From the NCBI GenBank assembly GCA_030674185.1, contig CM060306.1, positions 376,001 through 440,000 of the forward strand: 64,000 nt of DNA. Direction: 5' to 3'. A program made the position numbers and the translations under genes. Positions 9,001-30,298 of this stretch are shown here, in pieces. This stretch comes from Monoplex corrugatus. Its lineage: Eukaryota > Mollusca > Gastropoda > Littorinimorpha > Ranellidae. The stretch's first letter is position 1, and each line of letters begins with the position of its first letter. The notes beneath the pieces were generated by a model. The model was not told the origin of the DNA. It saw nothing but the letters and a program-made list of their open reading frames with translations, and ran no database searches.

Positions 9001-10358
9001 CTGATGAGGGGTGTGATGACAGGTGTTACAATGTTTGTATCTGATGAGGGTGTGATGACAGGTGCTTACAATGTTTGTCTGTATCTGATGAGGGTGTGTT
9101 GACAGGTGTTGCAATGTCTGTGTCTGATGAGGTGTGTGATGACAGGTGTTATAATGTTTACCCTTGTCAGATGAGTGGTGTGATGACAGGTGTTACAATG
9201 TTTGTGTCTGATGAGGTGTGTGAAGGCTGGTGTTATAATGTTTACCCTGGTCGGATAAGGGATGTGATGACAGGTGTTGCAATGTTTGTGTCTGATGAGG
9301 TGTGTAATAGTTTTGTATCTGATGAAAGGTGTGATGTCAGGTATTACAGTGTTTGTATCTGATGAGGGGTGTGATGACAGGTGTTGCAATGTTTGTATCT
9401 GATGAGGGGTGTGATGACAGGTGTTAGTGTTTGTATCTGATGAGGTGTGTGATGGCAGGTGTTACAGCGTTTGTGTCTGATGAGGGGCATGATGACAGGT
9501 GTTACAATGATGTGCCTGATGAGGTGTGTGATGACAGGTGTTACAATGTTTACCTGTGTCTAATGAGGGGTGTGATGACAGGTGTTGCAGTGTTTATATC
9601 TAATGAGGGGAGTAATGACAGGTGTTACAATGTTTGTCTGAGGTGTGATATGACAGGTGTTACAAAGTTTATCTGTATCTGATGATGTGTGATGACAGGT
9701 GTTACAGTGTTTGTGTCTGATGAGGGGCGTGATGACAGGTGTTACAATGGTTGTGTCTGTTGAGGTGTGTGATGACAGGTGTTATAATGTTTACCTGTGT
9801 CTAATGAGGGGTGTGATGACAGGTGTTATAGTGTTTGTGTCTAATGAAGGGAGTAATGACAAATGTTACAATGGTTGTGTCTGTTGAGGTGTGTGATGAC
9901 AGGTGTTATAATGTTTACCTGTGTCTGATGAGGTGTGTGATGACAGGTGTTACAATGTTTACCTGTGTCTGATGAGGGATGTGATGACAGGTGTTACAAT
10001 GTTTACCTGTGTCTGACGAGGGGTGTGATGACAGTTGTTACAACGTTTACCTGTGTCTGATGAGGGATGTGATGACAGGTGTTACAATGTTTACCTGTGT
10101 CTGATGAGGGATGTGATGACAGGTGTTACAATGTTTACCTGTGTCTGATGAGGGATGTGATGACAGGTGTTACAATGTTTACCTGTGTCTGACGAGGGGT
10201 GTGATGACAGTTGTTACAACGTTTACCTGTGTCTGATGAGGGATGTGATGACAGGTGTTACAATGTTTACCTGCGTCTAATGAAGGGTGTGATGACAGGT
10301 GTTATAATGTTTACCTGTGTCTGATGAGGCATGTGATGTCAGGTTTTTCAGTACTTAC
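6001..10358. repeat. 40/44-bp minisatellite reaching the exon 5 donor
   Basis: About 105 units. From 6001 to about 9130 units are mostly 40 bp (TTTGTGTCTG junction) with some 44-bp forms (TTTGTCTGTCTG). From about 9140 to 10358 many units are 44 bp with TTTACCTGTGTCTG, which on the gene strand reads CAGACACAGGTAAA, a good splice donor. The last unit merges with the real exon 5 donor at 10358/10359. A four-unit block of 176 bp is repeated at about 10013 and 10189. The array is intronic. Confidence 0.95.
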
Positions 10359-10422
10359 CTGGGTCAGACGACGGTTGAGAAGTAATATAGTGGTCATAGA
10401 TTTCGTTAGCGATCAACATTTC
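10359..10422 (-). CDS. PIK3AP1-like: BCAP/BANK-like adaptor, exon 5 (short tyrosine-containing segment)
   Basis: The 64-bp exon lies between CTTTTGCAG|GAAATG and GACCCAG|GTAAGTAC, both strong signals. It reads EMLIANEIYDHYITSQPSSDP, phase 0 to phase 1, continuing directly from the ankyrin repeat as in BCAP, where a helix and tyrosine motifs follow. Two tyrosines (IYDHYI) could be phosphorylation sites; neither fits the PI3K-binding YxxM consensus. The donor is immediately followed by the 44-bp form of the large minisatellite, and the acceptor is preceded by sequence resembling the 56-bp array. The exon is too short for a firm homology call; it rests on phase, position and splice signals. Confidence 0.58.
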
Positions 10423-10679
10423 CTGCAAAAGTTGAAAAACACACAATCACTGACAATGTAACTAATTTTACCTGTCTAAAATGTTGAGGAAACCATTACC
10501 ATTAACTGTTAAGCCTGTATATTTCTGCTGCAAAGGAAAGATAATACACTATTTCTATTCAACTAATTTGTTCCCACCTGCCAAAGATGTATTCACGATA
10601 TAATCATCAATTTGATACATACCTTACTGTCTAACAAATTCTAAAACAGAAAAATGACAATAATCACATATCACTAACC

Positions 10680-11320
10680 ATTTCAACCTATCTCTGTAAA
10701 CAAAAGATAACAGAAACACCATCACTAACAATTTAACCATCATGTCTGTTATACAAAGATACAGAAAACACCATCACTAACAATTTAACCCATCATTGTC
10801 TGTCTGTTACAAAGATACAGAAAACACCATCACTAACAATTTAACCCATCATTGTCTGTCTGTTACAAAGATACAGAAAACACCATCACTAACAATTTAA
10901 CCCATCATTGTCTGTCTGTTGCAAAGATACAGAAAACACCATCACTAACAATTTAATCCATCATTGTCTGTCTGCCTACAAAGATACAGAAAACATGTTC
11001 ACTAACAATTTAACCCATCATTGTCTGTCTGCCTACAAAAATACGGAAAACATGTTCACTAACAATTTAACCCATCATTGTCTGTCTGCCTACAAAATTA
11101 CAGAAAACATGTTCACTACCAATTTAATCCATTCCTGTCTGCCTACAAAGATGCAGAAAACATCACCACTAGCAATTTAACCCATTCCTGTCTGCCTACA
11201 AAGATGCAGAAAACACCATCCGCAACAATTTAACCCATTCCTGTCTGCCTATCTGTCTGCAAGATACAGAAAACACAATCACACCATCACTGACAATTTA
11301 ACTCATCCCTGCCTGTCTGC
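10680..11320. repeat. 56-bp minisatellite in intron 4
   Basis: About ten imperfect copies of a unit containing AAAGATACAGAAAACACCATC, CACTAACAATTTAACCCATC and ATTGTCTGTCTGTTAC. The best-conserved copies are at 10811, 10867 and 10923. The unit resembles the sequence beside the exon 5 acceptor (TGCAAAAGTTGAAAAACACA then ATCACTGACAATGTAAC at 10424-10462). The stretch 10463-10680 contains decayed versions and no recognisable gene. Confidence 0.85.
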
Positions 11321-11439
11321 AAAGACCATGACTATCGAACTGATTCCTTTCTGTCATACTGAACACAGCATATTTACAAAAATGACACTGCACAAGTTTC
11401 AGCAATCATGGCCACAAAACACATTTTAAAATTCATGTC

Positions 11440-11910
11440 AGTATATTTGTTACCAGGACAACGACACAGATTACCGTGACACCAGAACCCATTACCATAA
11501 CAGAACACATTGCTATGGTACCACAATCTGTCAAATGGGTTCTAGTGTCATGGTACCATGTCAACAGAACACACTTCCATGACAACAGAAGAAATTATCA
11601 CAACAAAAGAACACATTACCATGACAACATATTCTATTACCATGACAACAGATTCTATTAGCAAGACAACAGAAAACATGACCATAACAAAATACCTTAT
11701 TATCATGACAGCAGAGTACATTTCTGAGACTGCATAAGCATCACTTTGACAACATAAATACATTACCATGACAACGGCTCATATAACCATGACAACATAC
11801 ACATTATCATGACAACAGATATATTATGACAATGTATTTCCTTGATATCAGGACACATTACCTTGACAACAGAACAAATTACCCCCACACATTACCATCT
11901 ACAGAGTGAA
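11440..11910. repeat. Degenerate ~21-bp repeat next to the exon 4 donor
   Basis: Many variants of ATTACCATGACAACAGAACAC, spaced about 18-24 bases. On the gene strand the core reads CATGGTAAT, which is also the core of the real exon 4 donor (TTCATG|GTAATTC). Boundaries are vague because the units are diverged. Nothing coding is visible. Confidence 0.7.
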
Positions 11911-11914
11911 TTAC

Positions 11915-12119
11915 CATGAAGTCGATGATGTAGTTTTCCAGATCCTCAAAGCCAGCACTTGCAGCAAGTTCAGCGGGTCCCGCCCATCACAGTTACGTAT
12001 ACAGTTAGCATGAGAGCTGCCTGGACACTCGAGGAGGGCAGCGCAGAACTCGGACAGACCATGAGCAGCAGCGTAATGTAGCAGTGTTGGGTAAAGTGCC
12101 TCAGACTGTTTCGGTGGTT
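11915..12119 (-). CDS. PIK3AP1-like: BCAP/BANK-like adaptor, exon 4 (ankyrin-like repeat; one-base frameshift)
   Basis: The acceptor is TTCTGTTTATAG|AACC and the donor TTCATG|GTAATT. The reading EPPKQSEALYPTLLHYAAAHGL, then a Leu-Leu-x-Cys-Pro-Gly stretch, matches the ankyrin-like repeat of BCAP/BANK (their TLLHFAA and LLTCPG core). After the CDGRDP segment the frame breaks: the expected ELAASAGFEDLENYI continuation is in another frame, and one extra G in the CCCGCTGAA run would restore it and make the exon end in phase 0, as exon 5 requires. Either the assembly lost one G or the allele is broken. The first 29 bases of the exon plus the acceptor belong to a 46-bp unit that is repeated about five more times upstream. 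Confidence 0.72.
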
Positions 12120-12340
12120 CTATAAACAGAACATGGGTAAAGTGTCTCTGACTGTTTCGGTGGTTCTATAAACAGAACATGGGTAAAGTGCCTCTGACTG
12201 TTTCGGTGGTTCTATAAACAGAACATGGGTAAAGTGTCTCTGACTGTTTCGGTGGTTCTATAAACAGAACATGGGTAAAGTGCCTCAGACTGTTTCGGTG
12301 GTTCTATAAACAGAACATGGGTAAAGTGTCTCTGACTGTT
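12091..12340. repeat. 46-bp minisatellite spanning the exon 4 acceptor
   Basis: Five full units and one partial start at 12091, 12137, 12183, 12229, 12275 and 12321. Each holds, on the gene strand, the intron end TTCTGTTTATAG and the first 29 bases of exon 4. Units alternate between GTGCCTC and GTGTCTC forms, giving a 92-bp higher-order tendency. Only the lowest-coordinate copy joins the rest of exon 4. Bases 12341-12455 beyond the array are unique intron ending at the exon 3 donor. Confidence 0.93.
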
Positions 12341-12455
12341 AACAAGAGCTATCATTAATCAGACCAATATTGGTACCATCTCAAAAGTGCACAGATTCTT
12401 ACAGCGTGGAATAAAACGGGGAAGGACAGACAGACAGGTGGACAGACAGACTCAC

Positions 12456-12647
12456 CTGTACTCTCAGATGCCAAAAGGCAGGTTAAGGTAGATGGGGGCA
12501 GACTTGTGTTAAAGGCATCCTTCAGCTTCAGGCCCAGGTGATGAAGATCCTGCACACCTAGAGCCTGACACAGGTAGTGAGGGCTGGTGAACACACCTGT
12601 CTCTGGTCCTCGCATGGTCACGCTGCATCGCCACCGTCTATTGCCAT
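12456..12647 (-). CDS. PIK3AP1-like: BCAP/BANK-like adaptor, exon 3 (second half of DBB domain)
   Basis: The 192-bp exon ends at GAGAGTACAG|GTGAGTC, a near-perfect donor, in phase 1. The acceptor (GATGGAAG|ATGG) has a weak pyrimidine tract and was chosen because it is the only nearby AG in the right phase; the joined codon is GAT. The product segment TSPHYLCQALGVQDL followed by KLKDAFNTSLPP aligns in order with the BCAP stretch that follows the beta-rich half of DBB (a Pro-x-x-Phe/Tyr-x-Cys-Gln-Ala core, then an amphipathic helix). The 50-bp minisatellite of 12660-24640 starts within about 15 bases of the acceptor. The acceptor position is the least certain splice site of the model. Confidence 0.68.
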
Positions 12648-12659
12648 CTTCCATCACCA

Positions 12660-12755
12660 ACATGTTGTGTTTGCCAGGGCAAGCTCTGTGTACATACATT
12701 ACATTGGGTAAAACATTGTTTGCTTGGGGCCAGCTCTGTGTACACACATATCATT
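12660..12755. repeat. 50-bp minisatellite, exon 3-proximal fragment
   Basis: Two units of the CAGGGGCAAGCTCTGTGTAC / ACATTACATTGGGTAAAACA type, within about 15 bases of the exon 3 acceptor. The array is cut at 12755 by the RTE insertion, and the last 11 bases (CACATATCATT) are repeated at 19168-19178. Confidence 0.88.
12745..12755. other. Target-site duplication of RTE copy 1 (partner at 19168-19178)
   Basis: CACATATCATT is present exactly at both ends of the insertion. Confidence 0.88.
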
Positions 12756-13088
12756 ATCATCATCAGGTACCATGCCGCATGGCGTTAGCGATCATGGACT
12801 TCCATCTGTCTCTATCTCTCGTTGCCCCAAGCATCTCCTCCACTCTCCTCGTCCCCAGCCATTCTGCAAGTCCGTCCAGCATTTTCTCCCTGGGTCTGCC
12901 TGGTGCTCTCTTTCCCTCCAGCTTTCCCGTTGTGACCAGGTGCTCCAAATCCCCCTTCTTCATGAAATGGCCTATAAATGTTGCCTGTCTTTTCCTAATC
13001 TTCCTTATGAATGATCTACTTGTGTCTGCCTCCATCAAGACTGTGTCGTTTGTTTTCTTTGCTGTCCACGGAACTCTCAACATTCTTC

Positions 13089-13089
13089 T

Positions 13090-13135
<46 letters not shown>

Positions 13136-13381
13136 GTGCATTTATAGAGCGCTTTCCGAAACCTCAAAGCGCTTTACATCAGTAAACCATACATATAAAC
13201 CAAATAACAGGCTACAATACAAACAAACTCATCAAAAACTATCCACAGGAAATCAACAACCACACAGACACACCAAATAATCTCTCTCCCTCTCACCCCC
13301 TCCCCGCCCACCCCTCTCCCCCCATTTTCAAACACACACACACAACACCCACACACACACAGCCACACATCACACACACAC

Positions 13382-13417
<36 letters not shown>

Positions 13418-16400
13418 ACACACACACACACCACACAACACACAACAACCCGGCATACACCCCATTGTGCACAATTTCATCCAGAATGTCAAGCAGGATC
13501 AACCCACTAGCCAAAATCAGGAAAAACACTGTTTAAAGAAGTAAGTTTTTAAACTTGTTTTGAAAGATGGTAGCGTTTTAGAGTGGCGGACGGACTGAGG
13601 CAACAAGTTCCATGTCTGAACAGCAAAAACTGCAAAGGCTCTACCACCGTGAGTTTCTCTGTTATATTTTGGCACACGAAACTTCTTGTCATCCACAGAA
13701 GAGCGGAGTGATCGAGAAGGTACGAAGACAGTCAAGAGTTCAGAGAGATAGTCAGGAGCAGTTCCAGAAATGATGTGATAACAAAGGCAGCAAATCTTGT
13801 ATTTTATTCTTTGTTCAACCGGGAGCCAGTGCAGTGTCTGAAACAGGGTGTGCAGTGCTGTGACCTACGTGCCTTGAAGATGAGTTTAGCTGCAGAGTTC
13901 TGAACTTGTTGCAAATGTTTGAGATGTTTCTGAGGGCAACCCGCAAGGAGTGAATTGCAATAATCTAACTAGACAGAAGCATGCAGTAACTAACCCGCAA
14001 GATGAATGCAATAATCTAACCTAGACAGAATGCATGCAGTAACTAACGTCTTGGTTGCGTCTAATGTAAGGTAGTGTCTAATAGAATTAATGCGTCTAAG
14101 TTCGATGTATGCAGCCTGACATGTTTTGATGATGTGCTGGTGCATGGAGAGATTATGGTCAAAGACAAAACCGAGGTCACGAACGCAATCAGAAAAAGCA
14201 ATAGCGGTATTACCGACAGTAATAGTGGAAGGCAGAGAAGAAAGATCTGCAGGCAATGGAGAAACACGAAGGGCTTCAGTCTTGTCATCATTCAACTTAA
14301 GTCGATTTTCATACATCCAGGATTTTACTTCAGAAACGCAGTTCTGAAGAGACTGAACTAGATGATCGTAGTTAGAAGGAGAATCAGTATGATTGAGCTG
14401 GGTATCGTCCGCATACATTTCATGACGGATGGAATGTGAGTCAATAAGGTGGGTCAGAGGAAAAGTATACAATATGAAAAGCACAGGACCCAGAACAGAG
14501 CCTTGAGGCACGCCAAAATCCAAAGGCAGCTCAGAAGATTTGTTTCCGTCGACAAGTACGGTTTGCTTTCTTTCTGAAAGATAAGATCGAAACCAGTGTA
14601 AAGCAGATTTTTGAATTCCAAAGTTGTTTTCCAAACGGGAAAGCAAAATTTCATGGTCAATAGTATCGAAAGCAGCTGAAAGATCCAAAAGGAGAAGAAT
14701 AGAAATTTTGTTTTGATCCAGGGAGGTCAAAAGATCATTGAGAATACGAAGCAGAACAGTTTCTGTGCTGTGCCCTGGCCTGTAAGCAGATTGGTGAGGA
14801 CTAAGGAGGTTATGGGATGAGAGATGGGAGAAAAGCTGGTCTAGAATCAGACGTTCAAGCAGTTTAGAAAGAAATGGAAGATTGGAAATCGGTCTGTAAT
14901 TTTTCAGGTCATTTTTGTTGAGGTTAGATTTTTTCAGCAAGGGCTTAACAATGGCAGTCTTAAATTCACGGGGAACAATTCCAGTGGTAATAGACTGATT
15001 CATGATGTTTGTAATGGTCGGCAAGAGAAGATCCACATGTTGAAAGAGAAGTTTGGTTGGAATGGGATCAAGTTCACATGATTTAGGGGGAGTCTTAAGA
15101 ATGGTCTTCCGGACAAGGTCTTCAGAAACTGGAATGAAATTTACAAGTGGTGAGCCAGAAAACGACACAGTGTTTGAACCAGTACTTTGAAATGGTGGAA
15201 AACTGTCACGGATCTTTGAGAATTTTCTTATGGAAAAAATCGGCAAAAATGTGTGGGAGCAGTTTGACATCGGACACAGTGGGAAGAGACACAGGTTTGA
15301 TTTTTCCAAGAAGTGAGGACATATTGTGAAAGAGTTGTTTACAAGTGGTAGAACTGGACACTAGCGAAGAATAAAAAGCTGTTTTCGCGTCGTGTACGCA
15401 ATCTGCAACCGTTTGCTTTGCTGCGTCATAGATTTGTTTGTGTACTGTTAACCGTGATGACTGCCAACAGCGCTCGGCACGCCTACGCTCTCTCTTCAGC
15501 TGACGAAGCTGATCAGCGACAGCGCCGTACCACGGGTAGGCTTTCCGTCCCGGACTTTTCGTTGACGTACAGGCGCATGCTTGTCAAAAACAGCGGCAAG
15601 GGAACTGTTCAAATCGGACACTGACATAACGGTGGTCACAGACTGAGAAAGATCATCAGCGAACTTGTCTTGGTCAATTTTACTAATAGAGCGAGTGGAC
15701 ACAAGCTTTGCTTTACGTTTAGGCTTTTCAGCTGCTAGATAAGACAAAATTGAAAAATGGTCAGAAGAAAGATCATGATGGACACGAGTTGACAAAACAA
15801 GGTTATCGTCATCTCTACATATGACAAGGTCGAGAGTATTTCCACAGCTCTGCGTGGGTCCACTAACAGTCTGTTTAAGACCGTATATGTCAAGCTGATC
15901 AAGAAATTTTCTGGCATTAAAATCAGAAGTATCATTTACATGGATATTAAAATCACCAGCTAGAACAATACTGCCTTGACAATCAACACAAAAATCAAGA
16001 AAATCAGGTAATTCATCAAGAATTGAGATGTTGAAAGTTTGTTTTTCTTGTTGGGAGGAACTCTGTAGAGCAGAAAGAATGCCACACGTTGCTGTTGGAT
16101 CATCAAAATAAATTGAACCAGTTCAAAAGTGTCATGAGAGAAAGGAAAATTCGTTGTTGTTATACAGTTTTCAGTGAGAGAAACTTTGAGGAGGATGGCG
16201 GTGCCACCCCCACACTTGACCTTGGCGTTTGGGGGTCGTGGGAAAGACAGCAGCTTGTAGCCTGGGGGTGTCAGGTCGCGGCACTTCGCTTCGTCACCGG
16301 ACTGACGAAGCCAGGTCTCAGTCAACAGCATGACGTCAATATCGTGATCACGGACGAAGTCGCAGATCTCGGAACGTCTCTTTGACGGTCCCACAGAGTG

Positions 16401-17101
16401 CGCATTGAACAAACACAGACACAGCTGATTTGGGAGAGTGTCTAAATCTTGAATCGGGACAGTGATCAGATTGGAGAGGTTACAGCCTTGGGACGATGAA
16501 GGTAGAGTGACGTCAGACAGGATGGAGGGTGGCACCAGACCAGTACCAGCAGATGGACAGGCCAGGAGATCTCTGACGAGTGGAGTGCCGCAGACAACCC
16601 CGATCTTGCGACATTTTCTTCTGCCCCCACGCCGGGAGCGCTTGCGAGGTAGATTAATGCCCAGTGATAGAGTTTTCAGACGAGTAATCAAATTGGGATC
16701 GAGGCGAGCGCCTGTGGTCTTGGCAGCGATCAACTGATCGCGAGTGTAAACACAACGAAGAGGGGTCTGCCTTCTTGACAAGCGGGGGTCAAAGGTCAAA
16801 TTTTCACACAGCGCGGCAGGAGCCAGGGACAGTGCAGCGTGCCCCACGGAATGCGGATGCTGACGCGCTGGTAGTAATGGCGACTTGCATTCGAACAAAA
16901 TGGAAAGTCTTACCAGCAGAAGCCATGCCACAATCAACAGTCTGAGAGGTGGAGGAGCTCCGTAGAGCCACAGAAACAACGCCCGATCCATCACAAGCCA
17001 CCAGAAACAGTCTCAGGCACAATACACTCTCTCAGTCTCACAAAACAGACGAAAAACATGGGAGCAAGTGAAACCCTGCCTGCTAGGCGGACTCACTCAC
17101 A
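13089..17101 (-). mobile_element. CR1/L2-like LINE nested in RTE copy 1, nearly full length (LINE B)
   Basis: The element is about 4.0 kb with an (ATT)n tail at 13090-13135 and a terminal motif with GCGCTTTCCG and GCGCTTTACAT. The undamaged RTE sequence CATTCTTCTTAGAAACC seen at 40296-40312 is split here into CATTCTTCTTA on the left and TTAGAAACC on the right, so the target duplication is at most about 3 bases (TTA). The 3' UTR carries a (CA)n tract at 13330-13440. It differs from LINE A in its tail and proteins, so two CR1/L2-like lineages are present. Confidence 0.88.
13517..16994 (-). pseudogene. LINE B polyprotein: basic N-terminus, endonuclease, reverse transcriptase; several frameshifts
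   Basis: The N-terminal frame (16994 to about 15960) has a basic segment (PRKRSRRGGRRKCRK) and then the start of an APE-type endonuclease (LCLFNAHSVG, LLTETWLR). The endonuclease continues in other frames to about 15500 (SSDHFSILSYL). The reverse transcriptase lies at about 15130-13990 with [48 protein letters not shown] and YADDTQL. A C-terminal block (VPSRSLRSS, WNLLPQSV, SLKTYFF) is at 13735-13517. A local tandem duplication of about 50 bases at 13945-14045 damages the region after the polymerase. At least four frame breaks are visible. Confidence 0.85.
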
Positions 17102-19167
17102 TTAGAAACCACATCTCGGCTGCCTCAATCTTGTTCTGGCTTTGCTTGTTGACCGTCCACATCTCGCATCCGTACAACAGTATTGGTTCTATATAACATT
17201 CAAGAACTCTCTTCCTGATGTTAATTGATAGGAATTTGTTAGTAAGAACGCTTTTCATCTTCTTGAATGCTGTTTTGGCATGGCTGATTCTGCCGGCTAT
17301 TTCTGATGTGCATCTGCCATCTGATGAAATGATCATTCCCAAGTATTTAAATTTATCAACCTGTGTCAAGGTTGTGCCATTTGCTGTTATTTTGCATGAG
17401 GGGATTTCATGTTTTTTACTGATCACCATGACTTCAGTCTTCCTGCTGTTTTGTTAACCCCTTACCTTTGCTTTCTGTTTCTATTATATTCACAAGGTTT
17501 TGTAGGTCCCTTTCATTTTCTGCAATTAGCACAGTGTCATCTGTGTATCAAATGTTGTTTTTCATTTTCCCTCCAACCTTTAATCCAGGGTCTTCTTCTA
17601 GGTTTCTCATGATGTTTTCGCTGTAAAGTGAAAACAGATCTGGTGACAAAACACAACCCTGTCTGACTCCTCTTTTGATGTTTTGGAAAGAGCTTATATT
17701 GTTTTCTATTCTCATTGCAGCTGTTTGTTCCTAGTACATATTTCTGATTATTCGTAGATCTTTTCCATCAACATTGAGTCTCTCCAGTTGGTTGATCAAT
17801 TCTTCATGTCTTACCCGATCGAAAGCCTTGGTGTAGTCAACAAAGCATAAATACAAATCCTTATTCATCTCAATTGACCTCTCTATGATAGTTCTTAGGA
17901 TGTATATGGCATTAATAGTTCCTTTCCCTAACAGCATTTTTGTTACATGACTCATCAAACTGATTGTGCGATGGAGTTCGCATTCTATAGACCCTGTCTT
18001 CTTCGGAAGTGCAATGAAAATTGATTTTGACATATCTATGGGGATTTTTCCAGTGTCGTAAATTTCATTTAGGAGGACTGTTATTTTTTCTATGCCAAAT
18101 TTCTCCAGGGCTTCAATCATCTCTGTAGTAATGTTGTCTGGTCCTGGGGCTTTTCCTGGTTTCATCTTTTCCAGTGCTGCTCTAACTTCATCTTTCATTA
18201 TGGGTTGTCCTTCAAAGTTCTTTTTTATAATGTGTTCTTCGTTTCTGTCATCCTCAAAAAGGTCTTTAATGTACTCTCCCCATCTTTCTAATATTTTGTC
18301 TTTTTCCATGATAAGCGTGCCATCTTTTGATTTTAGGCAACCAGTTGGTGAGCATGTATTTTTCCTGTGGACAATTTCTTCAATTCGTCTGTACATACCC
18401 TGAGGATCCGTTTTGTGTCAGTCTTCCATTTCTTTGCACTTTGTTTTCAGCCAAGCTTCCTTAGCTTCATTGCGCCTACTCCTGATCTCCTTGTTTATCT
18501 TTCTGTATATCTCCTCGTTTCTCTTTGCCTTCCTCCTTTCCCCCATCAAGCCCAAAATTTCATTAGTCATCCAGCTCTTTTTTGCTTTTCTATCTGCCTT
18601 AGGGATTTCTTCACAAGCTTCATTTATCGAATTTCTCAACTTTGTCCATTGTTCCTCACTGTCACCAACGTCTTCCAGAGCACTGAATTTGTTTTGAACA
18701 TGTACGTTAAATTTTTTACGTATCACTTCATCTGCCTTTAAGAGTCCAAGATTTAGTTTGATGTTGCTTTTGGTCTGTTTCCTTTTCTTTAATTTCAGTC
18801 TAAATTTTCCCAATACAGGATTGTGGTCACTGTTGCAGTCTGCGCCTGGTAGTGTTTTTGCTGACAGTAAAGAATTTCTAAATTAGGATGTAGTCAATCT
18901 GATTTTTGGTATTATCTCCTGGATTCATCCAAGTCCATTCTCTTCTATTAGGCTGCTCAAACCAGGTGTTTCCTAATATGAACTCACTCATCTGTGTCCA
19001 TTCCACAAGTTTCTCTCCTCTTTCATTTTGCGTACCAAGGCCATGAGGTCCAACTATATCCTCCACTCTATCCTGTCCTACTTTAGCATTAAAATGTCTC
19101 ATTATTACAGTAACTTCTTGTGATTTACATTGGACCTTGGCCATCTCTAATACTTCGTAGAAGTTGT
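17102..19167 (-). pseudogene. RTE copy 1 ORF, upstream portion (endonuclease to RT palm)
   Basis: The minus frames in this stretch, read from 19167 down, give the endonuclease end (TWFEQPNRREWTW, NQIDYILI), the linker helix region (NEEIYRKINKEIRSRRNEA), and the RT fingers and palm (GPDNITTEMIEAL, PLKKT-like LPKKTG, LCFVDYTKAFDRVRHEELI). It ends with the thumb YLGMIISSDGRC and the CEMWTVNKQSQNK block. The conserved YADD region is frameshifted. The remaining C-terminal block sits across LINE B at 12763-13088. Confidence 0.85.
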
Positions 19168-20594
19168 CACATATCATTGGGTAAAACATTGTTTGCCAGA
19201 GGCAAGCTCTGTGTACACTCATTACATTGGTATAACATTGTTTGCCAGGGGCCAGCTCTGTGTACACACATTACATTGGGTAAAACATTGTTTGCCAGGG
19301 GCAAGCTCTGTGTACACACATTACATTGGGTATAACATTGTTTGCCAGGGGCAAGGTCTGTGTACACACATTACATTGGGTAAAACATTGTTTGCCAGGG
19401 GCAAGCTCTGTGTACACACATTACATTGGGTATAACATTGTTTGCCAGGGGCAAGGTCTATGTACACACATTACATTGGGTATAACATTGTTTGCCAGGG
19501 GCAAGGTCTATGTACACACATTACATTGGGTAAAATATTGTTTGCCAGGGGCAAGCTCTGTGTACACACATTACATTGGGTAAAACATTGTTTGCCAGGG
19601 GCAAGCTCTGTGTACACACATTACATTGGGTATAACATTGTTTGCCAGGGGCAAGGTCTATGTACACACATTACATTGGGTATAACATTGTTTGCCAGGG
19701 GCAAGCTCTGTGTACACACATTACATTGGGTAAAATATTGTTTGCCAGGGGCAAAGTCTGTGTACACACATTACATTGGGTAAAACATTGTTTGCCAGGG
19801 GCAAGGTCTGTGTACACACATTACATTGGGTAAAACATTGTTTGCCAGGGGCAAGGTCTGTGTACACACATTACATTGGGTAAAATATTGTTTGCCAGGG
19901 GCAAGGTCTGTGTACACACATTACATTGGGTAAAATATTGTTTGCCAGGGGCAAGGTCTGTGTACACACATTACATTGGGTAAAACATTGTTTGCCAGGG
20001 GCAAGGCCTGTGTACACACATTACATTGGGTAAAACATTGTTTGCCAGGGGCAAGGTCTGTGTACACACATTACATTGGGTAAAACATTGTTTGTCAGGG
20101 GCAAGGTCTATGTACACACATTACATTGGGTAAAACATTGTTTGCCAGGGGCAAGGTCTGTGTACACACATTACATTGGGTAAAATATTGTTTGCCAGGG
20201 GCAAGGTCTGTGTACACACATTACATTGGGTAAAACATTGTTTGTCAGGGGCAAGGTCTGTGTACACACATTACATTGGGTAAAACATTGTTTGCCAGGG
20301 GCAAGGTCTATGTACACACATTACATTGGGTAAAACATTGTTTGTCAGGGGCAAGGTCTGTGTACACACATTACATTGGGTAAAACATTGTTTGCCAGGG
20401 GCAAGGTCTGTGTACACACATTACATTGGGTAAAACATTGTTTGTCAGGGGCAAGGTCTGTGTACACACATTACATTGGGTAAAACATTGTTTGTCAGGG
20501 GCAAGGTCTGTGTACACACATTACATTGGGTAAAACATTGTTTGTCAGGGGCAAGGTCTGTGTACACACATTACATTGGGTATAACATTGTTTG
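19168..20594. repeat. 50-bp minisatellite between two RTE copies
   Basis: About 28 very homogeneous 50-bp units with CAGGGGCAAGGTCTGTGTAC and ACATTACATTGGGTAAAACA. Unit variants differ at few positions (GCAAGCTCTG or GCAAGGTCTG, TTTGCC or TTTGTC). The array continues the repeat interrupted at 12755 and resumes after 22600. Short frames such as GQGLCTHITLG are repeat artefacts. Confidence 0.95.
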
Positions 20595-22599
20595 CACAGT
20601 GAACAAATTCAGTGCTGTGGAAGACGTCACAATGGAGACAGTTGAGTAATGCGATAAATGAAGCTTGTGAAGAAATCCCTAGAATAGATAGAAAAGCGAA
20701 AAAGAACTGGATGACAAAAGAAATTCTAGGCTTGATGGAGGAATGGAGGAAGGCAAAGAGAAACGAGGAGATCTACAGGAAGATAAACAAAGAACTCAGG
20801 AATAGGCGCAATGAAGCTAAGGAAGCTTGGCTGATGACAAAATGCAAAGAAATGGAAGACCGACACAAAACGGATCCTCAGGGTATGTACATGTACAGAA
20901 GAATTGAAGAAATTGTCCACAGACAAAAGACATGCACACCAACTGGTTGCTTAAAATCGAAAGATGGTACGCTTCTCGTGGAAAAAGACAAAATAACAGA
21001 TAGATGGGGAGAGTACATTAAAGACCTTTTTGAAGATAACAGAAACGAAGAACACATAACAAAGAACGTTGAAGGACCACCCATAATAAATGATGAAGTT
21101 AGAGCAGCACTGAAAAAGATGAAACCAGGAAAAGCCTCAGGACCAGACAATATTACTACACAGATGATTGAAACTCTGGAGGAATTTGGTATTAAAAAAA
21201 TAACAGACCTCCTAAATGGGATTTATGACACTGGAAAAATACCCAAGGATATGTCAAAATCAATTTTCATTGTACTTCCAAAGAAAACAGGGGCTACAGA
21301 AAGCGAACTCCATCGCACAATCAGCTTGATGAGTCATGTAACTAAGATCCTATTAAGAATAATCATGATGAGGACAAGGAACACAATCAAAAGTGAAATA
21401 GCGGAAGAACAGTGTGGATTTTTCGAAGGGAAAGGAGCAATTAATGCCATATACATCCTAAGAACTATCATAGAGAGGTCAATTGAGATGAATAAGGATT
21501 TATATTTATCCTTTGTTGATTATACCAAGGCTTTCGATCGGGTAAGACATGAAGAATTAATCAACCAACTACAAAGACTATATATTGATGGAAAAGATCT
21601 ACGAATAATCAGAAATATGTATTGGGAATAAACAGCTGCAATGAGAATAGAAAACGATATAAGCTCTTTCCAAGATATCAAGAGGAGTCAGACAAGGTTG
21701 TGTTTTGTCACCAAATCTGTTTTCACTTTATAGCGAAAACATCATGAGAAACATAGAAGAAGACCCTAGATTATAGGTTGGAGGAAAATGATAAACAAAA
21801 TTCGGTACGCAGATGACACTGTGCTAATTGCAGAAAATGAAAGAGACCTACAAAACCTTGTGAATGTAATAGAAACAGAAAGCAAAGGTGAGGGGTTGGA
21901 GCTAAACAGCAAGAAGACTGAAGTCATGGTAATCAGTAAAAACATGAAATCCCCTCATGCAAAATAACAGCAAACGGCACAACCTTGACACAGGTTGATA
22001 AGTTTAAATATCTGGGAACGATCATTTCAACATACGGCAGATGCACATCAGAAATAGTTGGCAGAATCGGCCAAGCCAAAAACAGCATTCAAGAAGATGA
22101 AAAGCATTCTTACCAACAAATACCTATCAATTAACATCAGGAAAGGAGTTCTTGAATGCTATATAGAACCGATAATGTTATATGGTTGTGAGGCTCGGAC
22201 AGTCAACAAGCAAAGCCAGAACAAAATAGAACAAAATTGAGGCAGCTGAGATATGGTTTCTAAGAAGAATGTTGAGAGTTCCATGGACAGCAAAGAAAAC
22301 ATACGAGACAGTCTTGATGGAGGCAGACACAAAAAGATCATTCATAAAGAAGATTAGGAAAAGACAGGCAACATTTATAGGCCATTTTATGAGAAAAGGG
22401 GAATTGGAGCACCTGGTCACAACAGGGAAGCTCGAGGGAAAGAGAGCACCAGGTAGACCCAGGGAAAAAATATTGGACGGACTTGCAGAGTGGCTGAGGA
22501 CAAAGCGGGTAGAAGATGTGCTTGTGACAACAAGGGACAGATACATATGGAGGGCCATGATCGCCAACGCCATGTGGCAAGGCACTTGATGATTATGAA
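20595..22599 (+). mobile_element. RTE-type retrotransposon copy 2, 5'-truncated, plus strand
   Basis: The element is inserted in the 50-bp array. The array words AACATTGTTTG (20584-20594) and AACACTGTTTG (22600-22610) form an imperfect 11-bp target duplication. The 3' end is GGCACTTGATGATTATG, again a TGATGA-type tail. The 5' end starts between endonuclease and reverse transcriptase. Its 5' end faces that of copy 1 across 1.4 kb of minisatellite, making a large inverted repeat. Confidence 0.88.
20612..22589 (+). pseudogene. RTE copy 2 ORF: reverse transcriptase, frameshifted after the palm
   Basis: A 340-codon frame (20612-21631) runs from INEACEEIPRIDRKAKKNW through MKPGKASGPDNITTQMIETL, LPKKTG, EEQCGFFEGKGAINAIY and FVDYTKAFDRVRHEELI to a stop at YWE. 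The YADDTVLIAENERD motif (about 21800-21850), the thumb (FKYLGTIIST) and the C-terminal RMLRVPWTAKKTYETVL and PGRPREKILDGL blocks follow in other frames. It retains the 28-codon segment missing from copy 1. It is an RTE/BovB-like relative and inactive as written. Confidence 0.88.
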
Positions 22600-22600
22600 A

Positions 22601-24640
22601 ACACTGTTTGTCAGGGGCAAGCTCTGTGTACACACGTTACATCACCAGCATAATGTATTTGCCATAGCAAGCTCTGTGATACACAAGTCACATGGACATA
22701 TATTGTGTCTGCCATAGGCAAAATCTGTGATACACAAGTCACATGGACATATATTGTGTCTGCCATAGGCAAAATCTGTGATACACAAGTCACATGGACA
22801 TATATTGTGTCTGCCATAGGCAAGCTCTGTGATACACAAGTCACATGGACATATATTGTGTCTGCCATAGGCAAGCTCTGTGATACACACATCACATAGA
22901 TATATATATTGTGTTTGCCATAGGCAAGCTCTGTGATACACACATCACATGGATATATAGTGTGTTTGCCAGGGGCAAGCTCTGTGGTACACAAGTCACA
23001 TGGATATATATTGTGTCTGCCACAGGCAAGCTCTGTGATACACACATCACATAGATATATATATTGTGTTTGCCATAGGCAAGCTCTGTGATACACACAT
23101 CACATGGATATATATTGTGTTTGCCACAGGCAAGCTCTGTGATACACACATCACATGGATATATATATTGTGTTTGCCACAGGCAAGCTCTGTGATACAC
23201 ACATCACATGGATATATATATTGTGTTTGCCACAGGCAAGCTCTGTGATACACACATCACATGGATATATATATTGTGTTTGCCATAGGCAAGCTCTGTG
23301 ATACACACATCACATAGATATATATTGTGTCTGCCACAGGCAAGCTCTGTGATACACACATCACATAGATATATATTGTGTTTGCCACAGGCAAGCTCTG
23401 TGATACACACATCACATGGATATATATATTGTGTTTGCCACAGGCAAGCTCTGTGATACACAAGTCACATGGATATATATATTGTGTTTGCCACAGGCAA
23501 GCTCTGTGATACACAAGTCACATGGATATATATATTGTGTTTGCCACAGGCAAGCTCTGTGATACACAAGTCACATGGATATATATATATTGTGTTTGCC
23601 ACAGGCAAGCTCTGTGTACACACATCACATGGATATATATATTGTGTTTGCCACAGGCAAGCTCTGTGATACACACATCAGATGACTACATGTTGTGTTT
23701 GCCATGAGCAAGCTGTTTGGTACTCACGTCACATGACTACATGTTGTGTTTGCCATGAGCAAGCTGTTTGGTACTCACGTCACATGACTACATGTTGTGT
23801 TTGCCATGGGCAAGCTGTTTGGTACTCACGTCACATGACTACATGTTGTGTTTGCCATGGGCAAGCTGGTTGGTACTCACGTCACATGACTACATGTTGT
23901 GTTTGCCATGAGCAAGCTGTTTGGTACTCACGTCACATGACTACATGTTGTGTTTTGCCATGGGCAAGCTCTGTGGTACTCACGTCACATGACTACATGT
24001 TGTGTTTGCCATGGGCAAGCTGTTTGGTACTCACGTCACATGACTACATGTTGTGTTTGCCATGGGCAAGCTGTGTGGTACTCACGTCACATGACTACAT
24101 GTTGTGTTTGCCATGGGCAAGCTGTGTGGTACTCACGTCACATGACTACATGTTGTGTTTGCCATGGGCAAGCTGTGTGGTACTCACGTCACATGACTAC
24201 ATGTTGTGTTTGCCATGGGCAAGCTGTGTCGTACTCACGTCACATGACTACATGTTGTGTTTGCCATGGGCAAGCTGTGTGGTACTCACGTCACATGACT
24301 ACGTTGTGTTTGCCATGGGCAAGCTGTGTGGTACTCACGTCATATGACTACATGTTGTGATTGCCATGGGAAAACTGTGTGGTACTGATGTCACATGACT
24401 CCATGTTGTGATTCCATGGGCAAACTGTGTGGTACTCACGTCACATGACTCCATGTTGTGATTGCCATGGGCAAGCTGTGTAGTACTGACGTCACATGAC
24501 TCCATGTTGTGATTGCCATGGGCAAGCTGTGTGGTACTCACGTCACATGACTCCATGTTGTGTTTGCCATGGACAAGTTGTGTGGTACTCACGTCACATG
24601 ACTCCATGTTGTGTTTGCCAAGTGTGGTACACATACCACG
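22601..24640. repeat. 53-bp and 51-bp forms of the same minisatellite
   Basis: After one last 50-bp-like unit the array changes to a 53-bp unit (CACAGGCAAGCTCTGTGATA, ACACATCACATGGATATATA) until about 23680. It then changes to a 51-bp unit (CATGGGCAAGCTGTGTGGTA, CTCACGTCACATGACTACAT) until about 24640. The shared core is TTGCCAnnGGCAAGCT, a short palindrome-like word present in all forms. The forms are ordered blocks, so the array grew by separate local amplifications. Confidence 0.93.
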
Positions 24641-25390
24641 TGGGTATACGTTCAATCCTATAGAACAATGATTGGTGTGGTGTGATTCTACAGAAGGTGC
24701 ACAGGGCAATGACCACTATGTCAGCTTAACATCACACCACTACACTGTGCCAACGATCACTGTCAGTTGATGTCATCAGGACTCTGAATGTAAAGGGAGG
24801 ATTACACTCAGACACACCAACACAACTGGACAACCACAAGCTTCCACGTCAAAAAGTCACATGAAGGTTGAGTGGACGTGCCAAGTCGTACAGTAAGTGG
24901 CAAAGGCCTGGTTATACATGTTGTCTTCTTTTCTCTTCTTTTATTTGTTTGCTGGTACCGTGATGGAATTGCAGAAGGAATATGCTGCCAGTTAGTGGTG
25001 AGTCAAAAGGCCTGAAGAGGACAAAGGCTTGTGATGTCAGAATCACCATCGATGTTGGTCTTCCTTGGTCTGTTTCTTGCTTTCAATCCAGATATCTTCT
25101 TGTTGAACCAGCTGGTGGATTAGGTTCTGATCTGATGACCAAGCCATATATTCGCTTCTGATGAATGGGATGGTGGACTGGTGTTGCTAAAACCATTTTT
25201 TTCTGATTTAAATGTCTCTGATCATGTCATGTCTGGTCATATTGACAGCCCTTCTTAAACATCGCATATCACATGTGGTCATTTTGTGCTCAAGGGGCTT
25301 AGTCAGGGTCTAGGTCTGGCACTGGTTTGTCAAGATAAGAGGAAAATAAACCTGATGAGTTTGATATTTGTTTCAATAGGAATGTTAAAG
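24641..25390. other. Unique intron 2 sequence
   Basis: I see no open frame of note, RNA gene or repeat here. The only pattern is the transition to the 35-bp array near 25390. It is the longest non-repetitive stretch of intron 2. Confidence 0.6.
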
Positions 25391-28300
25391 TGTTTAAGGG
25401 GTAGGACAAACTGATAATCAGATGCTGTTTTAGGGGTGGGGCAAACTGATAACTAAGTGTTGTTTTAGGGGTGGGCAAACTGATAACTAGGCGCTGTTTT
25501 AGGGGTGGGGCAAACTGATAACTAGGTGCTGTTTAGGGGTGGATAAACTGATAACTAAGTGTTGTTTTAGGGGTGGGCAAACCGATAACTAGGCGCTGTT
25601 TTAGGGGTGGGGCAAACTGATAACTAGGTGCTGTTTTAGGGTAAACTGATAACTAGGTGCTGTTTTAGGGGTGAGTAAACTGATAACTAGGTGCTGTTTT
25701 AAGGGTAAGGTAAACTGATAATTGGATGCTGTTTTAGGGGTGGAGCAAACTGATAACTAGGTACTGTTTTAGGGTGGGGTAAACTGATAATTAGATGCTG
25801 TTTAGGGGTGGGGCAAACTGATAACTAGGTGCTCTTTTAGGGGTGAGTAAACTGATAACTAGGTACTCTTTTAAGGGTAAGGTAAACTGATAATTGGATG
25901 CTGTTTTATGGGTGGGGCAAACTGATAACTAGGTGGTTTTAGGGTGGGTAAACTGATAACTAGGTGCTGTTTTAGGGGTGGGGTAAACTGATAATTAGGT
26001 GTTGTTTTAGGGGTGGGCAAACTGATAATTGGATGCTGTTTTTGGGGTGGGTAAACTCATAATTAGGTGCTGTTTTAGAGGTGAGACAAATTCATAATTA
26101 GGTGCTGTTTTAGGGGTGGGTAAACTGATGATTAGGTGCTGTTTTAGGGATGGGGCAAACTGATAATTAGGTACTGTTTTAAGGGTAAGGTAAACTGATA
26201 ATTGGATGCTGTTTTAGGGGTGGGGCAAACTGATAACTAGGTGCTGTTTTAGGGGTGGGGTAAACTGATAACTAGGTGCTGTTTTAGGGGTGGGTAAACT
26301 GATAACTAGGTGCTGTTTAGGGGTTGGGTAAACTGATAACTAGGTGCTGTTTTAGGGGTTGGACAAACATAAACTAGGTGCTGTTTTAGGGGTTGGACAA
26401 ACATAAACTAGGTGCTGTTTTAGGGGTGGGGCAAACTGATAACTAGGTGTTGTTTTAGGGTGGGGTAAACTGATAACTAGGTGCTGTTTTAGGGTGGGGC
26501 AAACTGATAATTGGATGCTGTTTTTGGGGTGGGGTAAACTCATAATTAGGTGCTGTTTTAGAGGTGAGATAAATTCATAATTAGGTGCTGTTTTAGGGGT
26601 GGGTAAACTGATGATTAGGTGCTGTTTTAGGGATGGGGCAAACTGATAATTAGGTACTGTTTTAAGGGTAAGGTAAACTGATAATTGGATGCTGTTTTAG
26701 GGGTGGGCAAACTGATAACTAGGTGCTGTTTTAGGGGTGGGGTAAACTGATAACTAGGTGCTGTTTTAGGGGTGGGGTAAACTGATATATAGGTGCTGTT
26801 TTAGGGTTGGGTAAACTGATAACTAGGTGCTGTTTTAGGGGTTGGACAAACATAACTAGGTGCTGTTTTAGGGGTTGGACAAACATAACTAGGTGCTGTT
26901 TTAGGGGTGGGGCAAACTGATAACTAGGTGTTGTTTTAGGGGTGGGGTAAACTAATAACTAGGTGCTGTTTTAGGGGTGGGGCAAACTGATAATTGGATG
27001 CTGTTTTTGGGGTGGGGTAAACTCATAATTAGGTGCGTTTTAGAGGTGAGATAAATTCATAATTAGGTGCTGTTTTAGGGGGGTAAACTGATGATTAGGT
27101 GCTGTTTTAGGGGTGGGTAAACTGATGATTAGGTGCTGTTTTAGGGGTGGGGTAAACTGATAACTAGGTGCTGTTTTAGGGGTGGGGTAAACTGATAACT
27201 AGGTGCTGTTTTAGGGGTGGGTAAACTGGTAACTAGGTGTTGTTTTAGGGGTGGGGTAAACTGATAACTAGGTGTTGTTTTAGGGGTGAGGTAAACTGGT
27301 AACTAAGTGTTGTTTTAGGGGTGGGGTAAACTGATAACTAGGTGCTGTTTTAGGGGTGAGGTAAACTGATAATTGGATCTGTTTTAGGGGTGGGGTAAAC
27401 TGGTAACTAGATGCTGTTTTAGGGGTGGGTTAAACTGATAACTAGGTGCTGTTTTAGGGGTGGGTTAAACTGATAACTAGGTGCTGTTTTAGGGGTGAGG
27501 TAAACTGATAATTGGATCTGTTTTAGGGTGGGGTAAACTGGTAACTAGGTGCTGTTTTAGGGTGGGTTAAATTGATAACTAGGTGCTGTTTTAGGGTGGG
27601 TTAAACTGATAACTAGGTGCTGTTTTAAAGGTAAGGTAAACTGATAACTAGGTGTTGTTTTAGGAGTGGGGTAAACTGATAACTAGGTGCTGTTTTAAAG
27701 GTAAGGTAAACTGATAACTAGTGCTGTTTTAAAAGGTAAGGTAAACTGATAACTAGGTGCTGTTTTAGGGGTGGGGTAAACTGATAACTAGGTGCTGTTT
27801 TAGGGGTGGGGTAAACTGATAACTAGGTGCTGTTTTAAAGGTAAGGTAAACTGATAACTAGGTGTTGTTTTAGGGGTGAGGTAAACTGATAACAAGGTGT
27901 TTTAAAGGTAAGGTAAACTGATAACTAGATGCTGTTTTAAAGGTAAGGTAAACTGATAACTAGGTGCTGTTTTAAAGTTAAGGTAAACTGATAGCTAGGT
28001 GCTGTTTTAGGGGTGGGGTAAACTGATAACTAGGTGCTGTTTTAGGGTGGGGTAAACTGGTAATTAGATGCTGTTTTAGGGGTGAGATAAACTGATAACT
28101 AGGTGCTTTTTTAGGGGTGGGGTAAACTGGTAATTAGATGCTGTTTTAGGTGTTGGACAAATAGGTAACTTGGTGCTGTTTTAGGGGTAGGGTAAACTGA
28201 TAACTAGGTGCTGTTTTTGGGGTGGAGTAAACTGATAACTAGATGCTGTTTTAGGGGTGGGGTAAACTCATAATTAGTTGCTGTTTTAGGGGTGGTGTAA

Positions 28301-28885
28301 ACCCATAATTAGGTGCTGTTTTAGGGGGGGGGTAAACTGATAACTAGGTGCTGTTTTAGGGGTGGGGTAAACTGATAACTAGGTGCTGTTTTAGGGGTGG
28401 GGTAAACTCATAACTAGGTGCTGTTTTAGGGGTGGGGTAAACTGATAACTAGATGCTGTTTTTGGGGTGGGGTAAACTCATAACTAGGTGCTGTTTTAGG
28501 GGTGGGGTAAACTCATAACTAGGTGCTGTTTTAACGGTGGGGTAAACTCATAACTAGATGCTGTTTTAGGGGTGGGGTAAACTCATAACTAGGTGCTGTT
28601 TTAGGGGTGGGGGTAAACTCATAACTAGATGCTGTTTTAGGGTGGGGGTAAACTCATAACTAGATGCTGTTTTAGGGGTGGGGTAAACTCATAACTAGAT
28701 GCTGTCTTAGGGGTGGGGTAAACTCATAACTAGATGCTGTTTTAGGGGTGGGGGTAAACTCATAACTAGATGCTGTTTTAGGGGTGGGGGTAAACTCATA
28801 ACTAGATGCTGTTTTAGGGGTGGGGTAAACTCATAACTAGATGCTGTTTTAGGGGTGGGGTAAACTCATAACTAGGTGCTGTTTG
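25391..28885. repeat. 35-bp G-rich minisatellite
   Basis: About 100 units of TTTTAGGGGTGGGGTAAACT plus GATAACTAGGTGCTG. Variation is mainly in the number of G in each run, in GCAAAC versus GTAAAC, and in ACTGATAAC versus ACTCATAAC. The last third (28300-28885) is homogeneous in the ACTCATAAC form. Each plus-strand unit has two G4 runs. It lies in intron 2. Confidence 0.95.
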
Positions 28886-29189
28886 CTTTCAGGATTCTGG
28901 TTCTAATCTCTCTGTTGAAGCTTCCATCTTCTGTGAAATTACTGCTGTGCTATTTAAATTCACTCACCTGTTTGAGTTAGTGCATGCCACTAAGTTGATG
29001 CTAAAGTTGTCTGATATTCTGCTGACCCTCACAGTATCCGTTTATCTGATGCTGATTTTCAGTTCAGGTCATGCTGTTTACAGCCCAGCTGACCACTAAG
29101 GCTATCTCAGGGCTGGTACAGCGTTAAAAACGACCCAAGTAAAAAAAAAAGCTAATAGTTACTACCCATGCACCTGATTTGCCTTCAGG
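28886..29189. other. Unique intron 2 sequence
   Basis: Non-repetitive, with a short A-rich tract at 29140-29150. No gene is seen. Confidence 0.5.
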
Positions 29190-29362
29190 TGTCAAATGCT
29201 GTACCTATGATCATGTAACATGTGCTTTTCACACGTGATGTGCAGGTTGAAGATGTGTGCCTGTAGTCTTTCTGGTTCTCCATGTGCTAGGATCTCATCG
29301 TCTGCAAACAACAGATTGTTCACAGATTCTGGCTGGGGTTTGATTTTTTTGTGATCCTGTCC
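29190..29362 (-). mobile_element. Small reverse-transcriptase fragment
   Basis: The minus strand reads PQPESVNNLLFADDEILAHG followed by EPERLQAHIFNL. The FADD box with flanking hydrophobic residues and the following helix is the RT palm motif seen in RTE-like elements. No other part of an element can be joined to it. It abuts a 30-bp array on its 5' side. The family is not assigned. Confidence 0.55.
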
Positions 29363-29640
29363 ATGCAAATTATAACCAACAGTGGTGATAGCATGCAAAT
29401 TATAACCAACAGTGGTGATAGCATGCAAATTATAACCAACAGTGGTGATAGCATGCAAATTATAACCAACAGTGGTGATAGCATGCAAATTATAACCAAC
29501 AGTGGTGATAGCATGCAAATTATAACCAACAGTGGTGATAGCATGCAAATTATAACCAACAGTGGTGATAGCATGCAAATTATAACCAACAGTGGTGATA
29601 GCATGCAAATTATAACCAACAGTGGTGATAGCATGCAACC
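29363..29640. repeat. 30-bp minisatellite, nearly perfect
   Basis: Nine tandem copies of a 30-bp unit with ATGCAAATTATAACCAACAG and TGGTGATAGC, essentially identical, indicating very recent expansion. All frames are open (HAITTVGYNL on the minus strand), which explains the long frame joined to the RT fragment. Confidence 0.95.
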
Positions 29641-29662
29641 TTATCACAGCCCTGATGTGACC

Positions 29663-29771
29663 TCAAACTGGTGACTTAAAGCCGTCTTTCATCAAGAGTG
29701 ATCAGTGTCTACATCAAACTGGTGACTTAAAGCCGTCTTTCATCAAGAGTGATCAGTGTCTACATCAAACT
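29663..29771. repeat. 51-bp direct duplication
   Basis: The segment CAAACTGGTGACTTAAAGCC through GATCAGTGTCTACAT is present twice and begins a third time. This looks like an early-stage tandem array in the intron. Confidence 0.85.
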
Positions 29772-29874
29772 GTAATGAGCCCGTTGATTCTCTGCAATTA
29801 ATGAAAACACTGATTTAAAAAGCGTTCAAATAAAAGCGAAAGAACATGCATCACAAAAAGTTATCAAAGTGACT

Positions 29875-30165
29875 TTGATCTGCCGCCACAGACGTGAAGA
29901 CGTTATCTCACCTGATGCCACAAAATGAACTTTATCTCACCTGGCGTAACAAATGTAAAGATGTTATCTCACATAGCGCCACAAAAAGAAGACTTTATCT
30001 CACTTGGCGCCACAAAGGTGAAAACTTTTATCTCACCTGGCGCCACAAAGAGGAAGACTTTTATCTCACCTGGCGCCACAAAGAGGAAGACTTTTATCTC
30101 ACCTAGCGCCACAAAGAGGAAGACTTTTATCTCACCTGGCGCCACAAAGGTGAAGACTTTGTCAT
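29875..30165. repeat. 33-bp array of the exon 2 donor region
   Basis: About eight copies, the best at 29999, 30032, 30065, 30098 and 30131 (exact 33-bp spacing). On the gene strand each reads CTTTGTGGCGCCAG|GTGAGATAAAA, i.e. the last bases of exon 2 and its donor. Only the copy at 30131 is attached to the rest of exon 2. Older copies at 29877-29970 are spaced 29-33 bases and diverged. Confidence 0.92.
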
Positions 30166-30265
30166 TTTCCCGATCAGCAGTCAGTTGTATATCCGTCTGC
30201 TCCATCCTGAGAGTGACCTCACCTTTTACGTCCTCTCTGAACACTATGGCAACACGCACACCATC
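30136..30265 (-). CDS. PIK3AP1-like: BCAP/BANK-like adaptor, exon 2 (first half of DBB domain)
   Basis: The 130-bp exon begins after TTGTTTCAG and ends at GCGCCAG|GTGAG, both good splice signals. It reads VRVAIVFREDVKGEV...KVFTFVAP, which follows the pattern of the Ig/TIG-like DBB domain of BCAP (short beta strands, then a conserved AP before the next strand). The DBB domain mediates dimerisation or scaffold function in Dof, BCAP and BANK. It joins exon 1 in phase 0 and exon 3 in phase 1. The donor end is embedded in a 33-bp tandem array that repeats the exon end and donor several times at 29875-30165, so several almost identical donors follow the exon. A (TATG)n tract begins about 35 bases upstream of the acceptor. 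Confidence 0.7.
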
Positions 30266-30298
30266 CTGAAACAACGTCACTATGACTTTGACAACACA

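Follow-up and report, generated by a model that had tools for sequence, protein, structure and literature searches.

Probable mirage-type minisatellites at the exon-intron boundaries of an adaptor gene near a chromosome end in the gastropod Monoplex corrugatus

In the gastropod Monoplex corrugatus, a stretch of 64,000 nucleotides (C2:376001-440000 of the 3.02-Gb assembly GCA_030674185.1, contig CM060306.1; hereafter the window), which lies 0.38 Mb from one end of the 135.7-Mb chromosome C2, contains five exons of a predicted PIK3AP1/BCAP-like adaptor gene, and six of the nine splice junctions of these exons are crossed by the repeat unit of a tandem array. With a probability of roughly 0.8, we take these arrays to be mirage-type minisatellites, that is, segments straddling an exon edge that were duplicated in tandem and expanded on the intron side. 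A junction was counted as spanned when z was at least 6 and at least four bases lay on either side of it. The original prediction for this DNA, that the unit of the nearest array contains or abuts six of the nine junctions, was borne out by six spanned junctions, two of them weaker; in the z ≥ 6 test no array unit crosses the exon 1 donor, the exon 2 acceptor or the exon 3 donor.

The exons within the window are as follows.

48198 to 48899, minus strand: exon 1, PIK3AP1-like adaptor with a TIR-like domain; its donor lies outside any array.
30136 to 30265, minus strand: exon 2, in which a DBB-like region begins.
12456 to 12683, minus strand: exon 3.
11915 to 12119, minus strand: exon 4, ankyrin-like, with a one-base frameshift relative to the homologue.
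10359 to 10422, minus strand: exon 5.

The phases of the five exons are consistent on joining, and the predicted protein can be aligned with a homologue from abalone. In the protein search the sole match at E ≤ 0.001 was the Haliotis rubra PIK3AP1-like protein P0001 (E 1.8e-34), whose alignment covers 99% of the 402-residue query. Two Pfam families, TIR_3 and DBB, matched at scores under the curated cut-offs, and a search of solved structures returned a weak ankyrin match only (E 0.41). At several exon edges the neighbouring residues match the Haliotis homologue, and these edges are therefore not made by the repeats. Two more exons lie downstream, beyond the window; exon 6 was identified via an open frame and matching phases, and exon 7 was located by tblastn. 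Apart from the frameshift in exon 4, which could be an assembly error or the mark of a decaying copy, the gene is open.

The arrays of the gene are listed below, with boundaries partly taken from Tandem Repeats Finder (TRF).

29880 to 30160: 33-bp array of 8.8 copies; the unit holds the exon 2 donor and 25 exonic bases, with GT in 8/8 scored copies.
12668 to 12755: exon-proximal 50-bp copies at the exon 3 acceptor, with 16 exonic bases; outer bound set by eye.
19168 to 20595: 50-bp array with the same unit as at the exon 3 acceptor; retrotransposon-like sequence lies between array and exon.
22605 to 24620: 51-bp array related to the 50-bp unit, farther along the same intron.
12088 to 12340: 46-bp array of 5.5 copies with 96% matches; the unit holds the exon 4 acceptor and 32 exonic bases, with AG in 4/4 scored copies.
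11554 to 11914: degenerate 21-bp array (TRF 11554-11819 and 11836-11883); unit-like sequence reaches the exon 4 donor.
10423 to 11330: 56-bp array (TRF 10703-11282), with one more, diverged copy lying at the exon 5 acceptor; outer bounds set by eye.
5998 to 10365: 40/44-bp array at the exon 5 donor; exon-side 44-bp units hold a donor-like AG|GTAA and align with 22 exonic bases, and the 40-bp consensus is without these.
87 to 3180: second block of the 40-bp family, past a retrotransposon-like stretch; it runs on outside the window (L007, 4161-7263).

Clear exonic sequence (16-32 bases) is present within the units at four of the six spanned junctions. At the exon 4 acceptor the predicted 46-bp unit with exonic bases was recovered, the count of these bases being 32 and not 29 as first stated. 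At the exon 5 donor, 11 of the 15 nearest exonic bases are identical to the unit. At the exon 4 donor the array has a short, degenerate unit that includes five exonic bases, with z of 6.1 in the copy-to-copy test and 8.9 in the consensus span test. The exon 5 acceptor is the weakest of the six and depends on an alignment of about 55 intronic bases with the consensus (z 6.4-6.6). Beyond the window, a 53-bp unit ends at the exon 7 acceptor (z = 9.2, 0 exonic bases), and at the exon 6 donor an array begins 4 bp into the intron.

In addition to the adaptor gene, we have checked exon edges of two other gene families. For the CCT chaperonins (Pfam PF00118), 53 of 55 genome matches were taken with 350-400 bp of flank, two apparently intronless ones being left out; for myosin, the first 9 of 73 genome matches were taken with 200 bp of flank. 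This gave 123 readable edges out of 124 (105 CCT, 18 myosin), the L039 acceptor being excluded as mostly N. In the automatic scan, which equates an edge with the end of the family match, z exceeded the threshold of 8 at 12/123 edges, and at 10 of these the repeated stretch contains the edge (one edge each in L039, L042, L046, L067, L071, L077, L095 and L097, and both edges of L083). The L046 donor (z 11.2) and the L086 acceptor (z 10.8) abut a repeat that does not contain the edge and were not counted. None of the 18 myosin edges lies inside a tandemly repeated stretch. The pattern at exon edges is thus also present outside the adaptor gene, at 10 of the 123 sampled CCT and myosin edges.

The arrays near CCT exons point the same way. 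Twelve arrays have units of at least 20 bp and at least three copies, and eight of them contain or end exactly at a junction (exonic bases 19, 19, 14, 26, 4, 0, 9 and 2), giving P 5e-5 against a chance rate of 1 in 7 that is itself an assumed estimate (a 50-bp unit in 350 bp). Of the remaining arrays, that of L070 ends 34 bp short of the junction and three lie 80-238 bp away; L070, L092, L098 and the upstream array of L095 were counted against our reading. Under a rule based on array edges alone (near edge within 40 bp), 9/12 CCT arrays qualify (P 2.8e-4). Junction arrays occur at 4/12 CCT loci. For comparison, the general density of arrays in readable interior sequence (66.7 kb) is 0.90 per 10 kb. 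The L083 exon carries repeats at both ends, one extra copy at the acceptor and 2.3 copies by TRF of a stretch coding for EVQIGGER at the donor; it is part of the edge scan and not of the set with at least three copies.

The contents of the units bear on the direction of copying. The L067 unit holds 26 exonic bases that read VGDGTTSVT, which we take to be a conserved chaperonin motif, and the exonic bases in the L083 repeat read EVQIGGER; since both carry coding sequence, the exon was in these cases the source of the array. Other arrays take in no more than 0-5 exonic bases and end at the splice site (exon 7 acceptor, exon 4 donor, L077, L097 and L071); there, copying may have gone either way, and such arrays are what would be expected if arrays came first and exon edges shifted into the last unit. 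As a general account this capture of splice sites is very unlikely, since the other units hold 9-32 coding bases, including those of the two peptides above. Nine arrays were compared copy by copy with their consensus, and in six of them it is the exon-side copy that departs from it most.

The arrays do not share one sequence. When 15 units were compared in 105 pairs, no unit was common to two sites, the top local score was 24, and two pairs involving L077 reached z 6.4-6.6 on such short matches. This agrees with the prediction that every array repeats a different sequence, and speaks against a dispersed repeat inserted at exon edges.

Since an exon can meet an array at the array's edge only, we have compared the adaptor gene with a null in which the gaps are shuffled. 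Over introns 1-4, 0.7-1.4 of 8 junctions would be expected to be touched. In fact 5 are, with P ranging from 1e-5 to 1.6e-3 according to the overhang allowed and the removal of transposon-like stretches, and 4/8 are touched when the weak exon 5 acceptor is left out (P 3e-4 to 0.02); the array bounds in these shuffles were set by hand and pre-extended to the junctions. Array cover, judged by eye, looked flat with distance from the exon because arrays run outward from the junction, and array edges and unit content were therefore taken as the measures.

The position of the gene close to a chromosome end probably also matters. Minisatellites cover 21-88% of the sequence in C2:316-376 kb versus 0-23% in interior samples (twelve of 10 kb, three of them, L015, L020 and L026, all N and others partly N). 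Thirteen samples of 1.2 kb were taken about 0.4 Mb from chromosome ends, of which four are all N, one nearly so and eight well readable; six of these eight are array-rich (C1 start, C3 end, C4 end, C5 start, and C7 start and end), the C5 end sample is mainly microsatellite, and the C6 end sample, likewise 1.2 kb at about 0.4 Mb, has no arrays. Minisatellite-rich samples by several chromosome ends include L047, L051, L053, L054, L058, L059 and L060-L063, on C2 up to 2 Mb inward. That arrays are common in the adaptor gene is probably due to its place, 0.38 Mb from the chromosome end, where much of the sequence consists of minisatellites. Vertebrate minisatellites cluster subtelomerically, and those described here are similarly dense toward chromosome ends; we know of no link to splice junctions in the vertebrate case.

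Junction repeats follow this distribution in the sampled genes. Of the edges no more than 4 Mb from a chromosome end, 8/31 lie in a repeated stretch, versus 2/92 elsewhere (Fisher P 2.3e-4); when the distance limit is varied from 3.3 to 15 Mb, P stays between 7e-6 and 4e-4. Similarly, 6/7 near-end CCT arrays of at least three copies contain or end at a junction (P 5e-5). The junction excess over chance is significant for the sampled near-end genes only, and its basis is two genes plus the adaptor gene.

Several results weigh against our reading. The exon 5 acceptor shows no match in its exonic bases (3/19), the copy there lies about 280 bp away from the TRF array, and the direct copy-to-copy test fails (z = 1.5). 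Beyond the window, an array ends about 30 bp off the exon 6 acceptor with no match across the junction (z = 1.4), and the exon 7 donor has no array (z = 0.9). Divergence does not peak in the exon-side copy in 3/9 arrays (L046 acceptor, exon 4 acceptor and exon 2 donor). The 4-Mb limit was set post hoc, with the data already seen; two genes, on C7 and C5, supply all 8 of the near-end edges in repeats, and the other near-end loci sampled, a CCT gene on C22 and a myosin exon on C13, show none. Adding the two non-spanning myosin arrays of L102, which lie 39 and 65 bp from the matched segment, lowers the array count to 8/14 (P 2e-4), and the near-end set including myosin (L102 lies 3.7 Mb from a chromosome end) becomes 6/9 (P 5e-4). 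Away from the ends, 2/5 CCT arrays contain a junction, which is not significant (P 0.15). Finally, when the junctions were set against random positions, the comparison that accompanied the original prediction, no separation was obtained: arrays span 410/1000 random non-coding anchors drawn across the gene (41%), so that 6/9 junctions is not significant (P 0.11). This test is non-discriminating because arrays cover so much of the region.

The anchor result, the density of minisatellites in the zone and the 2/5 CCT arrays away from the ends, which is within chance, are all in keeping with a mere chance meeting, in which exon edges of a minisatellite-packed region touch arrays inevitably and junctions are not special. 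We nevertheless judge this unlikely, since array edges meet junctions more often than gap shuffling predicts, 8/12 CCT arrays sit at the junction and not elsewhere in the 350-400 bp flank, and contact alone would not place coding bases in the unit.

In addition to the positions of the arrays, we have checked their splice signals. Besides the 33-bp and 46-bp arrays, in which all scored copies keep the dinucleotide, GT is kept in 9/16 copies of the 21-bp unit and AG in 6/6 copies of the 56-bp unit and 41/65 of the 50-bp unit; the 40-bp consensus is without splice dinucleotides, which were lost or never present. Splice columns are not clearly more conserved than other columns of the unit, and there is therefore no sign of selection on them. 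A small splice-site matrix served for viewing candidates only. In the 33-bp exon 2 donor array (29969-30343, minus strand), the frame of the exon stays open through several copies, and inner donors, if used, would add 11-residue repeats.

Such in-frame additions raise the question of whether the copies are functional alternative splice sites. Turri et al. (1995) reportedly described a minisatellite with multiple splice donors in human IFI6 (6-16). The intact GT in all eight copies of the 33-bp array and its open frame would suit this explanation, and so would the human case, in which repeat-borne donors are used (PMC4526556). Like IFI6, the present units hold splice donors; IFI6 is a single locus with donors in use, and those described here are known from sequence alone. 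The explanation is quite unlikely to apply, since the 40-, 46-, 50- and 56-bp units are not divisible by three, the next 46-bp acceptor, if used, leads into a stop, and the splice columns do not stand out within the unit.

Taken together, the above results favour minisatellites of the mirage type. Some 20-90 bp that cross an exon-intron boundary, or stop at it, would be duplicated in tandem, and the copies would then multiply on the intron side, presumably through slippage or unequal exchange. The copy joined to the exon would hold the working splice site, probably the one used in splicing, together with codons under selection; all other copies, with their repeated exon ends and splice signals, would leave with the intron, which would thereby lengthen with the protein unchanged. 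The 40-bp family alone makes up about 10.6 of the 17.4 kb of intron 5, in line with the claim that junction-founded arrays lengthen introns.

Retrotransposon-like open reading frames were noted by eye at 3169-5670, 12763-19150, 20603-22589 and 35749-42048, some of them between blocks of one minisatellite; both the 50-bp repeats of intron 2 and the 40-bp repeats of intron 5 are split in this way. Upstream of the gene, an 8-kb array of a 15-bp unit (54340-62497) lies inside an open frame of 2773 codons; the frame is probably spurious and open only because the unit length is a multiple of three.

The units, their positions, their exonic content, their recurrence in other genes and their greater number in the sampled near-end genes are direct observations. 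A mutational preference for junctions is not shown, because better survival of junction-founded arrays would look alike. Duplications might arise evenly, and the junction-founded array might persist longest because its outermost copy is needed and the whole can never be deleted. This is a serious possibility, at somewhat less than even odds: the exon-side copy is necessarily kept, and some arrays are old enough for homogenisation and retrotransposon-like interruption, but intron-internal arrays persist too (a 35-bp array at 25391-28884). The suggestion that duplication at exon edges is favoured or tolerated therefore holds in so far as edge-founded arrays exist in the window gene and in CCT genes, the choice between favoured origin and better survival being undecided.

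Canestro et al. (2002) are said to have described mirages in Adh3. According to two papers on amphioxus, mirages are minisatellite-like tandem duplications of exon-intron boundaries, found in Adh3 and the globins BflGb6 and BflGb9 (PMC3087553) and in TnC and PGBD5 (PMC3902484), with splicing undisturbed and length unstable (PMC3087553, PMC3902484). The original statement that no described class of repeats has this property must therefore be dropped. As in amphioxus, the unit straddles the junction at donors and acceptors, many but not all copies keep GT or AG, and units of 21-56 bp in the window and 22-92 bp near CCT exons fall inside the reported range of roughly 10-160 bp (PMC3087553). In contrast to the lancelet cases, for which normal splicing and length instability are reported, ours are known from a single assembly; they differ further in the mollusc host, in numbering six or seven in one gene, in having been counted over sampled edges and in being more numerous near chromosome ends.

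Human segmentally duplicated genes contain internal tandem repeats with units of 30 bp on average, some at exon-intron boundaries (PMC2812944); these concern recent paralogues and novel introns, whereas the exon edges here align with a distant homologue. Intron repeats are not described as crossing junctions in the available parts of reports on abalone TSSK1-like (PMC6905558), earthworm metallothionein (PMC12783039), Daphnia (PMC3152781), C. elegans (PMC4039745) and gastropod hemocyanin introns (PMC7931591). In the open-licence literature, to the extent that its text was accessible, we found no report of junction-crossing tandem repeats in a mollusc or of mirages outside lancelets. Thus, the repeat class is already known, and what is new is the mollusc host, the density and the link to chromosome ends.

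One could speculate, although we think it unlikely, that in animals whose chromosome ends are rich in minisatellites new arrays truly arise by preference at junctions, owing to some property of junction DNA or to co-transcriptional splicing, and that this is a main route of intron growth common to molluscs and lancelets. Mirages at a sizeable share of edges in some near-end genes of a distant phylum would be a recurrent mode of intron growth and not a lancelet oddity. The Monoplex genome allows mutational preference and selective survival to be separated by counting, and the copies at junctions are a possible source of cryptic splice sites and new introns.

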